Origin: Arenibacter sp. 6A1
Lineage (GTDB): Bacteria; Bacteroidota; Bacteroidia; Flavobacteriales; Flavobacteriaceae
Direction: 5' to 3'
DNA: 64,000 nucleotides
NCBI RefSeq assembly: GCF_012272855.1
Contig: NZ_JAAXCQ010000001.1
Location: 186,001 to 250,000, forward strand
Shown here: positions 55,194 through 60,741 of the stretch, piece after piece
How positions within the stretch are numbered: the first letter of the stretch is position 1
Layout: every line of letters begins with the position of its first letter
Made by a program: the position numbers and the translations under genes
Notes under the pieces: model-generated
What the model was told of the DNA's origin: nothing
What the model saw: only the letters and a program-made list of their open reading frames with translations
The model's database searches: none

Positions 55194-55961
55194 TTAATTT
55201 TTGACGTTTTTAAGTTGATTTTTTAGCTCCTCCATAGATTCCTGTAATTGTTTCAACAGTCCTCTTTCGGAAGTGGCATCTACTCCGAAGGTTATTTTAC
55301 TACTTACCTGCCAAAGTTCTTGTATCTGATCTATCTTAATACGGTACGGCGGATAGTTTTCGTTTAGGGAAATCAGGGAGATCTCCATAGGGTTGGGTGT
55401 TTTTTCTATTTTTTTCACCAATACAGCGTCATGCAGAACGACGACATACATTTTATTGGCACTGATAGCCTGCAAACCTTCTACCGCTTTTGCCAGCACC
55501 CATTCGCCCGGCCTTAAGTTTGGCAACATACTATCGCCTTCTATTTGAAAACCGCGATAGGAGGCATTTCGGAATTCTGGCAAAGGGATATCGAAAGCCG
55601 GTAATTGTCGGTACCAACTTACATCCTGTATATTTTGCGGATATCCTGCTGCTGCCTTAGCGTTCACCAAGACTATATTTTCTTTTTCAGAGGAATCTAC
55701 GGTAACCACTTTTGGTATAATACTGACTGTTGAAGTAGCTAAATATTTCTGGGTGTTTTCTCCAAAAAGCCAAAGGGGATTGATTTTAAATTGCTTTAAC
55801 AATTCTGCCACCACTTTTCCAGACAGCTTGGTTCGCCCGCGTTCGATATCGGCGGTAGTATTTGAAACTCCCAGCAATGCTGCAAATTCAGCCTGTGTAT
55901 ATCCCAATTCCCTTCGGATTTCAGAGAATCGTTTTATTGCTATTTCCATATCGTCATTCAT
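55194..55961 (-). CDS. XRE-S24 (LexA/CI-like) self-cleaving-type repressor
   Basis: The 255-residue protein combines an N-terminal helix-turn-helix (about 8-65; LGYTQAEFAALLGVSNTTAD) with a C-terminal S24/LexA-like peptidase (about 95-225). An Ala-Gly pair lies in KAAAGYPQN at 105-106, the nucleophilic serine in EGDSM (Ser144) and the general-base lysine in AVLVKKIE (183/184). This is the arrangement of LexA, UmuD and phage CI. A start at 55961 (MNDDMEIAIKRF) avoids the operator-rich region; the frame would continue to 56069. It is divergent from the putative repair operon at 56140 and likely controls both directions. Confidence 0.85.
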   Translation of the reverse strand: MNDDMEIAIKRFSEIRRELGYTQAEFAALLGVSNTTADIERGRTKLSGKVVAELLKQFKINPLWLFGENTQKYLATSTVSIIPKVVTVDSSEKENIVLVNAKAAAGYPQNIQDVSWYRQLPAFDIPLPEFRNASYRGFQIEGDSMLPNLRPGEWVLAKAVEGLQAISANKMYVVVLHDAVLVKKIEKTPNPMEISLISLNENYPPYRIKIDQIQELWQVSSKITFGVDATSERGLLKQLQESMEELKNQLKNVKN

Positions 55962-56052: not shown

Positions 56053-56124
56053 TTTTGGATATAATCCAAAAATAATCTTGGATTATTTCCATTATTTGGA
56101 AATTTTCCATAAATTTGGATTATC
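56053..56124. promoter_or_regulatory. Cluster of palindromic repressor-like operators
   Basis: The interval has TTTTGGATATAATCCAAAA (56053-56071, a palindrome with a three-base centre), TTGGATTAT (56078-56086), TGGAAATTTTCCA (56097-56109) and TTTGGATTATC (56114-56124). The recurring half-site is TTGGAT. It separates the S24 repressor gene from the divergent operon. Confidence 0.7.
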
Positions 56125-56139
56125 TACAAATTATGCCTT

Positions 56140-56328
56140 ATGACTTGTGATGATATCCAACAGACTTTAAACTTCTTGGTGTTTTCAGGAATGCAGGACG
56201 ACAACAATTCGTCAAAAGCAATTCCGAAATCCAAAAAAGAGAAACAATCCGTCAAAAAACCAAGAACTAAGAGCACTATTAGAAAGGCAACAAAAGACGA
56301 TAGCATACAGCTTAATTTATTCGACTAG
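56140..56328 (+). CDS. 62-residue protein with C-terminal beta-clamp-binding-like motif
   Basis: The small product MTCDDIQQTLNFLVFSG has a polar, lysine/threonine-rich middle (KKEKQSVKKPRTKSTIRKATK) and ends SIQLNLFD. QLNLF matches the sliding-clamp-binding pentapeptide (QL-x-LF) found at the ends of UmuC/DinB/ImuB-like polymerases and other clamp clients. It is followed by the next gene after two bases and shares the operator region with the repressor. No known family was recognised. Short length lowers certainty, but the operon position and motif support it. Confidence 0.65.
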   Translation: MTCDDIQQTLNFLVFSGMQDDNNSSKAIPKSKKEKQSVKKPRTKSTIRKATKDDSIQLNLFD

Positions 56329-56330
56329 TT

Positions 56331-57044
56331 ATGGAAAAGGCAAAAATTTTAATTTACGAAGGAGGTTTCAACGGATTCTTAACAGTTATTTATAAGTCTT
56401 TTAAAGAAAAATTAAATGTTTCCGATATCCAAAACCAACGCGATATCCAAAAGGGCCTTTTTTCAGACACAGAAACGGTCCATATGCAGTCAGACAAGGC
56501 CAAACGTGTTTGGGACGGAATTCAAAAAAAGGACAGGACTGCACTAAAGACCATATACTTTGCATATTTAAGTGAAAAAAAGGGGATAGAGCTTTTGCTT
56601 TACCAATATATCCACCATATGTTTTTTGGTGAGGCGAAGATATCTTCGGAAGCCATAAAGGATATATTTTTAAAACTACATCAATATGCCGGCATGGTGG
56701 CTAGAGAAAAGCACCGTATTGAGGCCATTGCTACCTTTAAAATTTCCCAGGATCAAATGCACTACACGGCAATTACCCCTTACCACGATGTTCTACCATT
56801 GTTATCGAGATACTACCGGTCCAAATTTCCCGGCAAAGAATTCCTCATCTACGATAAAAAAAGAAAATATGCCCTCCTATACAACCTGCTCTCCATAAGC
56901 TATATTCCTATGGAAATTCCGATCGATTTTTTCAGAACAGCGCCTTCATCAAAACCACTAAAACCATTGATTTCAAACACGGCCCCCTATCCATTTTCTA
57001 GAAGAACGAAATCCATCAAAGCAGATCAAAAAGCAGCGGTATAG
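56331..57044 (+). CDS. TIGR03915/DUF4130-family putative DNA metabolism protein
   Basis: The 237-residue protein begins with the family pattern ILIYEGGFNGFLTVIYKSF, followed by QSDKAKRVWDGIQKK near 53. HDVLPLLSRYYRSKFPGKEF near 155 and IYDKKRKYALLYN near 178 follow. Members (DUF4130) are usually next to, or fused with, a uracil-DNA-glycosylase-like domain and a radical SAM repair protein (TIGR03916). No such partner lies in this window. The gene is cotranscribed with the 62-residue ORF and faces the S24 repressor, suggesting damage-inducible expression. The C-terminal tail is basic and low-complexity. Confidence 0.8.
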   Translation: MEKAKILIYEGGFNGFLTVIYKSFKEKLNVSDIQNQRDIQKGLFSDTETVHMQSDKAKRVWDGIQKKDRTALKTIYFAYLSEKKGIELLLYQYIHHMFFGEAKISSEAIKDIFLKLHQYAGMVAREKHRIEAIATFKISQDQMHYTAITPYHDVLPLLSRYYRSKFPGKEFLIYDKKRKYALLYNLLSISYIPMEIPIDFFRTAPSSKPLKPLISNTAPYPFSRRTKSIKADQKAAV

Positions 57045-57255: not shown

Positions 57256-57783
57256 CTACTTACTTTTTTCTCCTACAAAATTGTCACTCGGGTTTTTAAA
57301 AAGCACATTAAAGGTCGTGAGGCTACCGTATATACGGGTAATATACTGTTGAAGATCTACTTTTTCCTGGTCGTCTAAATTCTTGCTACTATTTATTTTC
57401 TGTTCCATCACCCTTATCCTATCGCGCACCATTACAATTTTATGAAAAAAGGCATCCAATGGAATTTCTTTTTCCGATAACTTGGCGTCTCCAGGTTTTA
57501 AAACGAGGGAACCTCCCTTCCACTTATCTGCTATGGGGGTTATCGCACTCGTGTCGCTCCACCGTCTTAAGATAGAAATTAATGACTGCTCTACTTCTGA
57601 AAAACTAATCGTAACTACGGCATCTTCAACACTTTCGACAATCTCAAAATCGGCATTTAAATCAATTGTCTCCAAACCGTTTTCAATAAAGGTTACCCAA
57701 TAATGTTTAGAGGTTACATTGGTAACTACTCCTTTACCAAATTCCTTGTGTTGTATACGCGAACCAATTCCTAAAAGCTGCAT
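57256..57783 (-). CDS. Conserved hypothetical protein with UvrD-C-terminal-like domain
   Basis: The 175-residue protein begins MQLLGIGSRIQHKEFGKGVV, like the Tudor/KOW-type module at the end of UvrD/PcrA helicases (GxxVxHxxFGxGxV). The rest is helical and ends in a charged tail, with no catalytic motif. It lies between the repair operon and uvrA but on the opposite strand. A nucleic-acid-associated role is suggested by the small domain only. The function is unknown. Confidence 0.72.
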   Translation of the reverse strand: MQLLGIGSRIQHKEFGKGVVTNVTSKHYWVTFIENGLETIDLNADFEIVESVEDAVVTISFSEVEQSLISILRRWSDTSAITPIADKWKGGSLVLKPGDAKLSEKEIPLDAFFHKIVMVRDRIRVMEQKINSSKNLDDQEKVDLQQYITRIYGSLTTFNVLFKNPSDNFVGEKSK

Positions 57784-57906: not shown

Positions 57907-60741
57907 ATGATTAATTACGAAGAAAATATAGAGGTTAAAGGTGCTCGCGTACACAACCTTAAAAATATAGATGTTACCATTCCTAGAGAGAAACTTGTTG
58001 TGATCACCGGACTATCGGGTAGCGGGAAGTCTTCTTTAGCCTTTGACACCATATATGCCGAAGGGCAACGTAGGTATATAGAAACCTTTTCAGCCTATGC
58101 ACGTCAGTTTTTAGGAGGCTTGGAACGTCCGGATGTGGATAAAATAGACGGACTATCTCCGGTAATTGCCATTGAGCAAAAAACCACCTCTAAATCGCCC
58201 CGCTCTACTGTTGGCACCATCACCGAAATTTACGATTTCCTAAGGCTCTTATATGCTCGTGCCGCAGATGCCTATAGTTATAACACTGGGGAAAAAATGG
58301 TCAGTTACAATGATGAACAGATCAAAGAATTGATCATTTCATCGTATAAAGACAAAAAAATAAATGTATTGGCCCCGGTAATTAAATCTAGGAAAGGGCA
58401 TTACCGCGAACTTTTTGAACAAATCGCCAAACAAGGGTTTGTCAAGGTAAGGATCGATGGTGAAATCAAGGATATTGTAAAAGGCATGAAAGTGGACCGT
58501 TACAAGACCCATGATATAGAAATTGTCATCGATCGCCTTAAGATCATTGAAAATTCGGACTTGGACAAACGCATTTCCGAAACTATCAACACGGCGATGT
58601 ACAGTGGCGATAATGTTTTGATGATTTTGGAAGAAGGCCGTGATGAGCCCCGGTATTTTAGCAGGGATTTAATGTGCCCTACCACTGGTATCTCTTACCC
58701 ATCTCCGGAACCCAACACCTTTTCTTTTAATTCCCCAAAAGGCATGTGTCCGGATTGTAATGGTTTGGGCCATGTTTTTGAAATTAATGAGCACAAAATA
58801 TTCCCTGACAAAAAACTTTCCATTAGCGGTGGTGGTATTGCTCCTTTGGGAGCTTACAAAAAATCATGGGCCTTTAAGCAGATCGAGACCATTGCACAAC
58901 GCTATAACTTTGACATGGCCGAGCCTATCTCAAAAATCCCCGAAGCGGCGATACAAGTTTTGCTTTATGGCGGCAAGGAAAGCTTTGAGGTAGATTCCAA
59001 GACCCTTGGTGTTAAGCGCACCTACAAAATAGACTACGAAGGGATTGCCCATTTTATAAAAAGCCAGTTCAACGAAGCTAGTTCAACCACTATTAAACGT
59101 TGGGCCAAGGAATACATGGACAAAATTGAATGTCCCAACTGCCATGGCAGCCGATTGCAACAAGCCTCTTTAAACTTTAAAATTGCCGAAAAGAATATAG
59201 CCGAACTTTCGGATTTGGACATTAGGGAATTGGCCGATTTTTTCAACGGACTCGAAAAAGAGCTGAATACCACCCAGTTAAAAATTGCAGAAGAAATTTT
59301 AAAAGAAATTCGCTCAAGAATTCAGTTCTTATTAGATGTAGGCTTGGATTACCTCTCTTTAGGACGCAGCAGCAAATCTCTTTCTGGCGGGGAAGCTCAG
59401 CGTATCCGACTAGCCACACAGATAGGCTCACAACTGGTGGGGGTTCTTTATATTTTAGACGAACCTTCCATCGGACTGCATCAGAGAGACAATGAACGCC
59501 TGATAAAGTCTTTGGAAGCTCTGCGCGACTTAGGGAATTCTGTCTTAGTAGTAGAACATGACCGCGACATGATAGAACGCGCAGACCATGTGATCGATAT
59601 AGGCCCTATGGCCGGGAAACACGGTGGCGAGATTATCTCACAGGGAAAACCGGCCGACCTGATCGAGCAACACACTCTTACGGCAGATTATATAACAGGA
59701 AAATTACAAATAGAAGTCCCCAAGACTCGAAGAAAAGGCAATGGAAAAAATATTGTTTTAACGGGCTGTACCGGGAATAATTTAAAAAATATTTCGGTTA
59801 GCCTTCCATTGGGGAAAATGATCGGAATTACCGGTGTTTCGGGCAGCGGAAAATCTACTTTGATCAATGAAACCCTTTACCCAATTCTGAATGCCTATTA
59901 TTTTAACGGGGTAAAGAAACCCATGCCGTATAAAAAAATCACCGGCCTTGAACACATCGATAAGGTTATAGATATCAATCAATCTCCCATTGGAAGAACA
60001 CCCCGTTCTAATCCCGCTACCTACACTGGAGTATTTAGCGAAATTCGCTCCCTGTTCACCAAAACCCAGGAAGCTGCTATTAGGGGCTACAAGCCAGGGC
60101 GCTTTAGTTTCAATGTAAAGGGCGGAAGATGCGAAACCTGTCAAGGAGGAGGCCTTAGGGTTATTGAGATGAATTTTCTCCCCGACGTTTATGTGGAGTG
60201 TGAAACCTGTAACGGGAAACGCTTTAACAGGGAAACCTTAGAAATCAGGTACAAAGGAAAATCTATCGCCGACGTGCTGGAAATGACCATCAACGAATCT
60301 GTGAAATTTTTCGAGAACATCCCCAAAATATACAGAAAACTAAAAACAATTCAAGATGTTGGCTTAGGCTACATCTCTTTAGGACAGCAATCGACAACCT
60401 TATCGGGAGGAGAGGCCCAGCGTATAAAATTGGCCACAGAACTATCTAAAAGAGATACCGGTAACACTTTTTATATTTTAGACGAACCCACAACGGGCCT
60501 TCATTTTGAAGATATCAGGGTGTTGATGGGCGTGCTTAATGAACTGGTTGACAAAGGAAACACCGTTGTGGTCATAGAACATAATTTAGATGTTATTAAA
60601 ACAGTAGATTATATCATAGACATTGGTTATGAAGGTGGCCGTGGAGGTGGAATGATAGTAGCCAAAGGCACTCCCGAAGAAGTAGCAAAAGACAAAAAAA
60701 GCTATACTTCTAAGTTTCTTAGGAAAGAATTAAGCCTGTAA
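57907..60741 (+). CDS. uvrA: Excinuclease ABC subunit A
   Basis: UvrA recognises bulky DNA lesions in nucleotide excision repair. The 944-residue protein has Walker A motifs [12 protein letters not shown] at 35-46 and [13 protein letters not shown] near 642-654, with ABC signature [13 protein letters not shown] near 487 and [13 protein letters not shown] near 830. The zinc modules have CPDCNGLGH near 282 and [17 protein letters not shown] in the 745-775 region. The start [20 protein letters not shown] is typical. It is preceded by a 123-bp gap with no exact -7 box. Confidence 0.97.

Follow-up and report, generated by a model that had tools for sequence, protein, structure and literature searches.

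A small protein that probably resembles both ends of a missing radical-SAM enzyme precedes a DUF4130 gene beside a LexA-type repressor in Arenibacter

The closest described relative of the locus reported here is the TIGR03916 (rSAM_link_UDG)/TIGR03915 pair, which is tied to DNA damage and occurs in several phyla. According to the accessible part of PMC3765255, DUF4130 is a predicted mutagenesis-related enzyme tied to SplB-like radical-SAM proteins and uracil DNA glycosylases. The pair is probably also the COG4277/COG1573 pair in the non-canonical LexA regulon of PMC8565304 (Sanchez-Osuna et al.). The part of that paper available to us reports that the non-canonical LexA of S. agarivorans binds GGA-N5-TCC by EMSA, that the LexA group with this motif comes mainly from Flavobacteriaceae, and that the predicted regulon includes dinB, splB, and the COG1573-COG4277 pair. 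A term search of the same part found no 'small protein', 'clamp', 'divergently' or 'Arenibacter'. A related arrangement is seen in the UdgX-type loci of Alphaproteobacteria. A radical-SAM gene lies directly upstream in all three records, and two of the three enzymes end in QLxLF, with QLALI in Paracoccus. The downstream product is annotated as UdgX in those loci, whereas the locus described below has DUF4130 alone, with no radical-SAM gene. Among the papers listed in searches of the open-access literature (most subscription papers lay outside the search) we found no description of the small protein that is our subject, no paper on the biochemistry of the TIGR03916/TIGR03915 pair, and nothing linking radical SAM with sliding-clamp binding or UdgX with a radical-SAM operon.

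The locus was found in the window, by which we mean the whole 64-kb stretch of DNA that was analysed. The window lies on contig C11 of genome G000, which belongs to a marine bacterium of the genus Arenibacter and is 99.9% complete in 60 contigs. The features of the locus are as follows.

55194 to 55961, minus strand: non-canonical LexA-type repressor with HTH_3 and Peptidase_S24 domains (Pfam), divergent from the two genes, likely ATG start at 55961.
56057 to 56067, no strand assigned: operator O1, GGA-TATAA-TCC, from a pattern search (motif by EMSA in the accessible part of PMC8565304).
56080 to 56090, no strand assigned: operator O2, GGA-TTATT-TCC, 23 bp past O1, from a pattern search.
56098 to 56108, no strand assigned: operator O3, GGA-AATTT-TCC, 18 bp past O2, from a pattern search.
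56140 to 56328, plus strand: small protein of 62 aa, proposed mini-partner (adaptor) of the DUF4130 protein, from ORF calling and conservation.
56140 to 56199, plus strand: codons 1-20 of the small protein, in register with the TIGR03916 radical-SAM N-terminus (profile and hhalign; dN/dS 0.12).
56308 to 56322, plus strand: codons 57-61 of the small protein, the C-terminal clamp-binding-type motif QLNLF (residue conservation and dN/dS).
56331 to 57044, plus strand: TIGR03915/DUF4130 protein of 237 aa, of the enzyme-less type without PxRYW, with a predicted DHH/RecJ-like fold (profiles and model).

An earlier note, made from the letters of this DNA, had held that the first product ends in QLNLF, that the second belongs to a family linked to radical-SAM and uracil-DNA-glycosylase partners, that the two genes lie two bases apart and face a LexA/CI-like repressor, and that the usual radical-SAM partner is missing from the neighbourhood. 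All of this was borne out. The small protein ends in SIQLNLFD and a gap of 2 bp separates its ORF from the next. The 237-aa protein matches TIGR03915 with 135.8 bits, above the curated threshold of 112.25, and Pfam DUF4130 with an E-value of 9.6e-19. The TIGR03915 match spans only profile positions 1-192 of 243; positions 193-243 and the PxRYW motif are absent. The divergent repressor matches PF00717 (1.4e-11) and PF01381 (5.3e-9) and is accompanied by the published GGA-N5-TCC operator. The missing partner is missing from more than the locus, since a profile search of all 60 contigs found no TIGR03916 radical-SAM gene. The small protein has no Cys cluster and no CxxxCxxC radical-SAM core, and Pfam and NCBIfam searches gave it no family. 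A PcfK match over residues 22-62 was rejected, its 14.1 bits (E 0.052) falling short of the cut-off of 27.

Our best reading is that the locus is a two-gene, LexA-type-controlled operon related to the known TIGR03916/TIGR03915 pair, and that the variant with the small protein is new. As in the known pair, the DUF4130-family gene comes second, and the first product starts with a segment resembling KLxxLA...D and ends in QLxLF; many loci of the known pair also have operators with this motif at similar spacing. Unlike in the known pair, the first gene encodes only about 60 aa and no radical-SAM core, and the DUF4130 protein lacks PxRYW. The repressor resembles the Bacteroidetes non-canonical LexA, as far as the accessible part of PMC8565304 describes it, in its HTH_3 and S24 domains, its occurrence in Flavobacteriaceae, and the operator in its own promoter. 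The same operator also precedes dinB-like and splB-like genes in G000, and comparison of architecture and operator with that part of the paper revealed no difference.

The three perfect GGA-N5-TCC sites lie within 52 bp between the repressor and the small ORF, at -83, -60, and -42 relative to the small ORF start. The 64-kb window as a whole is not enriched in this pattern (17 sites against 12.9 expected from shuffles), and the three-site cluster is far above chance. A search of G000 with the longer pattern TTTGGAN5TCCAWA returned 10 rows at seven distinct places, and a reversed control pattern returned four rows. Two of the seven places fall in the small ORF/DUF4130 locus. Two more, L102 (DinB-like) and L105 (SplB-type radical-SAM), have a second site nearby at a promoter. 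At L102 (contig C23, near 331732), a DinB-like gene that contains QINLF internally and is followed by a PHP/DnaE-like gene faces a divergent SRAP-type gene across two tandem GGA-N5-TCC sites (gene names read from sequence); the whole looks like an SOS mutagenesis cassette. The single sites at L103, L104, and L106 look like chance occurrences, the first of them inside a coding region. The SplB-type radical-SAM protein (G000:C59:101519-102625) belongs to a different family from TIGR03916. Of 24 SplB-type loci fetched (L333-L356), 23 proteins were read, L351 having an internal stop; all 23 end in or near Q[LM]xLF, and two GGA-N5-TCC sites precede the gene in 17 of the 23 loci. This protein looks like a clamp-tagged SOS enzyme.

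We surveyed DUF4130 loci in a family sample of 397 genomes, taken evenly from a larger group. In 137 of these genomes the DUF4130 profile found matches, at 138 loci in total, and each of these loci was read with 1.5 to several kb of flank. The loci are of two kinds, 101 with a TIGR03916 gene and 37 without, and the 101 genomes matched by the TIGR03916 profile are the same ones that hold the 101 enzyme-bearing loci. The C-terminal PxRYW of DUF4130 is present in 101 of 101 loci with the enzyme and in 0 of 37 without it. Similar counts came from a set of named loci, which are the best 80 of 542 found and whose strains partly overlap the family sample: PxRYW occurs in 51 of 52 loci with the enzyme and in one of 28 without. 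Maribacter sp. ACAM166 (L297:1635-3726) has the enzyme and a DUF4130 C-terminus without PxRYW. In Muricauda sp. CP2A (L306:2700-3777) the locus lacks the enzyme but retains PxRYW, the repressor, and the operators, which looks like a recent enzyme loss. Absence of the enzyme and loss of PxRYW are coupled in near-exact fashion.

A small ORF occupies the enzyme's place in 19 of the 37 enzyme-less loci of the family sample, and in the named set in 18 of 28 clearly and in one (L264) doubtfully. The other 18 of the 37 have no detectable small ORF, so DUF4130 persists without it. All 19 small-ORF loci are divergent from an S24 repressor, as are 17 of the 18 enzyme-less loci without a small ORF and 28 of 70 assessable enzyme loci; 33 of the 70 are neither divergent from a repressor nor behind an operator array. 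These geometry counts omit 31 enzyme loci, of which 27 lie near the fetched edge, three have a cut 5' end, and one has the enzyme on the other strand. Of the 19 small-ORF loci, 17 have a three-site array upstream of the small ORF, with sites spaced by 22-23 and then 18-20 bp; an array of this spacing also stands before the enzyme operon in 18 of the 28 enzyme loci that are divergent. The array lies mostly at about -80 to -40 from the first start codon. No small-family ORF was found in the 52 enzyme-bearing named loci with up to 3 kb of flank; the one motif match, in L296, comes from a mechanical ORF that lies within the DUF4130 gene region and is unrelated to the family. G224 and G403, which are two species of the same genus, carry a tandem arrangement (L160:2323-4583 and L161:2394-4639) in which the operator array precedes a small ORF ending in QLNLF, followed by a complete enzyme and a DUF4130 gene with PxRYW. 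These are the only places where the miniature and the full enzyme were seen together, in a survey that could miss small ORFs upstream of the enzyme in about 30 of the 101 enzyme loci. The tandem operons indicate that the small gene can coexist with the enzyme and need not replace it.

The small ORF is conserved. It precedes the short-type TIGR03915/DUF4130 gene in 17 of 18 Arenibacter genomes; the DUF4130 gene is present in all 18, and in G011 no small ORF was found before it. The small protein of the closest relative, G009, is 82% identical. Across the survey the small ORF occurs in 13 genera, 12 without the enzyme (Arenibacter included) and one with it. A profile of the small protein gave 14 matches in the 397 family genomes, 13 of them in a DUF4130 locus; the lone match elsewhere, in G150, is weak (E 0.004) and partial. 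A phylum-wide search of 375 genomes with 26 small proteins returned matches at an E-value of 0.1 in 11 genomes. Four of these are convincing (G000, G072, G224, and G403), all in Flavobacteriaceae, and this search found no distribution beyond the family. A chance ORF was considered and rejected: among 3350 mechanical ORFs of at least 40 aa in the survey loci, counted outside the three families, 22 have the C-terminal motif, and 21 of the 22 belong to the small family itself. The ORF behaves as coding sequence because its dN/dS, pooled over ten Arenibacter genome pairs that share genomes, is 0.23 overall. The value is 0.12 for codons 1-20, 0.33 for the linker, and 0.04 for the last eight codons; in the same comparison the first 100 codons of the DUF4130 gene give 0.04. 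Purifying selection on the small protein is strongest at both ends. Residues Q57, L60, and F61 are invariant in 26 of 26 small proteins, and M1, L10, A14, and D20 nearly so.

The two conserved ends have counterparts in the TIGR03916 enzyme. From the start codon, the small protein (MTCDDIQQTLNFLVFSGMQD) aligns without gaps with the enzyme N-terminus (MSFERIKEKLNILADAAKYD), sharing the register and part of the residues of the KLxxLADAAKYD segment. When 98 enzymes were scanned with a profile of 22 small proteins (three of the 101 were omitted because the start was cut or not found), this N-terminal register outscored every other window in all 98, although these counts are not independent tests since the enzymes are near-copies of each other. 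The median score was 16.5 bits, against a maximum of 5.1 for the N-termini of 279 other mechanical ORFs of at least 180 aa. With the Met and the Arenibacter sequences left out of the profile, the register came first in 86 of 98 enzymes and in the top three in all 98. Equally good scores for this reduced profile were reached by 50 of 102,047 windows of other ORFs and by none of 287 N-termini. At the other end, all 101 enzymes of the family sample carry Q[LMIF]x[LMIF]F within the last 25 residues. A Q-L-x-L-F type motif at a protein terminus is a type known from proteins that bind the sliding clamp. Of six enzymes from other groups, those of Spirosoma, Fusobacterium, Phaeobacter, and Azospirillum end in or near QLxLF, and the exceptions are Paracoccus (QLALI) and Gemmatirosa (QLSLW). 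Between the ends, the radical-SAM cysteines C67, C71, and C74 are invariant in 44 of 44 enzymes. A structure model of the radical-SAM protein was poor (mean pLDDT 58.4) and draws a low-confidence helix at residues 3-19; in a sequence search of the PDB, the radical-SAM profile matched only two RuvA chains.

The small protein is probably a miniature that resembles the missing radical-SAM protein at both ends, and the case is strengthened because the order of the two ends, the place in the operon, and the promoter agree. The earlier note had proposed a new partner that takes the place of the usual one, and this stands in part. The small protein does occupy the enzyme's place, but it is probably not unrelated to the enzyme, and one genus has both genes. 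The expectation that the small ORF would be conserved alongside TIGR03915 genes in Flavobacteriaceae agrees with the 13 of 14 profile matches in DUF4130 loci, the 17 Arenibacter genomes and 12 further genera, and the purifying selection at its ends.

We favour, with some reserve, the reading that the small protein is an SOS-controlled mini-adaptor that docks DUF4130 onto the sliding clamp and stands in for the radical-SAM enzyme. The resemblance of the ends suggests that the cell gave up the enzyme's chemistry but retained its ends for docking and clamp binding. DNA damage would trigger RecA-dependent self-cleavage of the LexA-type repressor, upon which the small protein and DUF4130 would be made together. 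The N-terminus of the small protein would dock on DUF4130, its QLNLF tail would bind the beta clamp, and DUF4130 would thus reach sites of stalled or damaged replication with no radical-SAM chemistry involved. The cleavage, the induction, both binding events, and a DUF4130 activity that needs delivery to replication sites are what we infer from sequence. More tentatively, and with rather less confidence, a radical-SAM DNA-repair enzyme may have been reduced to a two-motif adaptor of about 60 residues while its DHH/RecJ/Cdc45-like DUF4130 partner stayed useful, within an SOS regulon of clamp-tethered tools that comprises the adaptor, TIGR03916, the SplB-like protein ending in QLxLF, and the DinB-like polymerase. 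Enzyme-less lineages that keep DUF4130, often with a miniature of the enzyme's ends, amount to a natural experiment, and they predict a DUF4130-docking segment, clamp-mediated recruitment, and DUF4130 action without radical-SAM chemistry.

The main rival reading is a replication brake: on SOS induction the small protein would block the clamp by sitting in its binding pocket and so slow replication, and DUF4130 would be merely co-regulated. SocB is a replication inhibitor that blocks the clamp and would be the model for such a brake, and in other phyla a small gene next to lexA often encodes a checkpoint inhibitor. The short length of the protein, its position behind a LexA-type promoter, and the near-consensus clamp-type motif at its very end would all suit this role. 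A pure blocker, however, needs no conserved N-terminus, and that of the small protein is under selection (dN/dS 0.12) and matches the N-terminus of the radical-SAM enzyme. The tie to DUF4130 also speaks against mere co-regulation, as the one profile match outside a DUF4130 locus is the weak and partial G150 hit. We regard a replication brake as unlikely.

A second alternative keeps the adaptor function of the preferred reading but not the descent: a separate small gene would have gained DUF4130-docking and clamp motifs independently, working as the enzyme's ends do. Both motifs are short, and the linker of the small protein is variable and shows no evident similarity. The tandem operons of G224 and G403 show the small ORF as a separate gene. 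The hhalign probability is low, only 4.4 for the whole pair, so that the argument for homology consists of short matches plus context. Against convergence stand the residue register kept from the start codon, with hhalign pairing residues 1-30 with residues 1-30 at an E-value of 0.0094, the same order of the ends, and the similar operator spacing, and we consider independent origin quite unlikely. It is very unlikely that the ORF is a decaying relic or a leader that is translated only to bring ribosomes to the DUF4130 start. Such a role would fit the 2-bp spacing and the failure to find the ORF in Arenibacter G011 and in 18 of 37 enzyme-less loci but not the amino-acid-level selection concentrated at two ends or the presence of the ORF in 13 genera, the tandem genus included.

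On the adaptor reading with descent, the small gene would derive from the enzyme gene, perhaps by duplication and internal deletion. In a quick tree of DUF4130 (151 rows, with an outgroup from another family), the 24 small-bearing rows all fall into a single enzyme-less clade, which has 35 rows and a support of only 60; a 36-row version of the clade has a support of 28. Three further enzyme-less groups without a small ORF appear in the tree (G420 with G248; G212; and G070 with G319b, G442, and G286). In the repressor tree, by contrast, loci with the enzyme are nested among those with the small ORF. The tandem operons and this conflict between the DUF4130 and repressor trees weaken the case for a one-step deletion in place. 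The history would be either that of a small-enzyme-DUF4130 ancestor that lost pieces repeatedly or one of re-acquisition of enzyme-DUF4130 pairs. Three Arenibacter genomes (G001, G003, and G008) have an enzyme-less locus and a separate full TIGR03916/TIGR03915 pair elsewhere in the genome. In a fourth, a stretch at G004:C1:3818918-3819040 matches only TIGR03915 positions 201-241 (47 bits), contains one internal TGA, and is possibly a remnant of a lost enzyme-linked DUF4130 gene.

The DUF4130 protein of the window has no PDB relative by sequence search. We predicted its structure with AlphaFold2, using 73 aligned sequences; the model has a mean pLDDT of 87.5, and its tail is of low confidence from residue 219 on. 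The best Foldseek match in the PDB, and the only one with an E-value below 0.001, is the DHH-type PAP phosphatase 8a8k (E 9.6e-4, TM 0.44), followed by a second chain of 8a8k and by RecJ structures. VIA-align to 8a8k gives a Z of 9.9 over 186 residues (rmsd 4.1), and RecJ gives 9.3. The margin is modest, given that a best Z of 7 to 8 is usual for models that lack clear relatives. The first 26 rows of the VIA-align output comprise the PAP phosphatase, RecJ, a DHH-domain protein, Cdc45, and replisome/CMG chains taken as Cdc45. The model aligns with the DHH/DHHA1 phosphoesterases and Cdc45 over residues 4-216. It differs from the phosphoesterases in its low identity (8%) and TM score and in lacking a conserved His: none is found among the invariant or 90% columns of the 73 sequences, and the DHH metal-binding motif is absent. 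DHH-type catalysis is therefore not indicated, and a cautious reading of the model is that DUF4130 may have an inactive or altered DHH fold.

We also considered that enzyme-less DUF4130 proteins carry a clamp motif of their own, and rejected this because the motif occurs in 0 of 43 enzyme-less rows and one of 104 enzyme-linked rows. Downstream of the locus, an ORF of 175 aa (57256-57783, minus strand) has a sub-threshold match to the PcrA/UvrD tudor domain (E 0.018) and adjoins a uvrA-like ORF at 57907-60741, named from reading the sequence. The C-terminal tails of DUF4130 proteins, in the window (57027-57041) and in its relatives, often end in AV (EKxAV, AAV). A loose form of this pattern is matched by 20 of the 37 enzyme-less DUF4130 proteins and by 29 of the 101 enzyme-linked ones, and we take these tails to be reminiscent of a weak ssrA-like degron.
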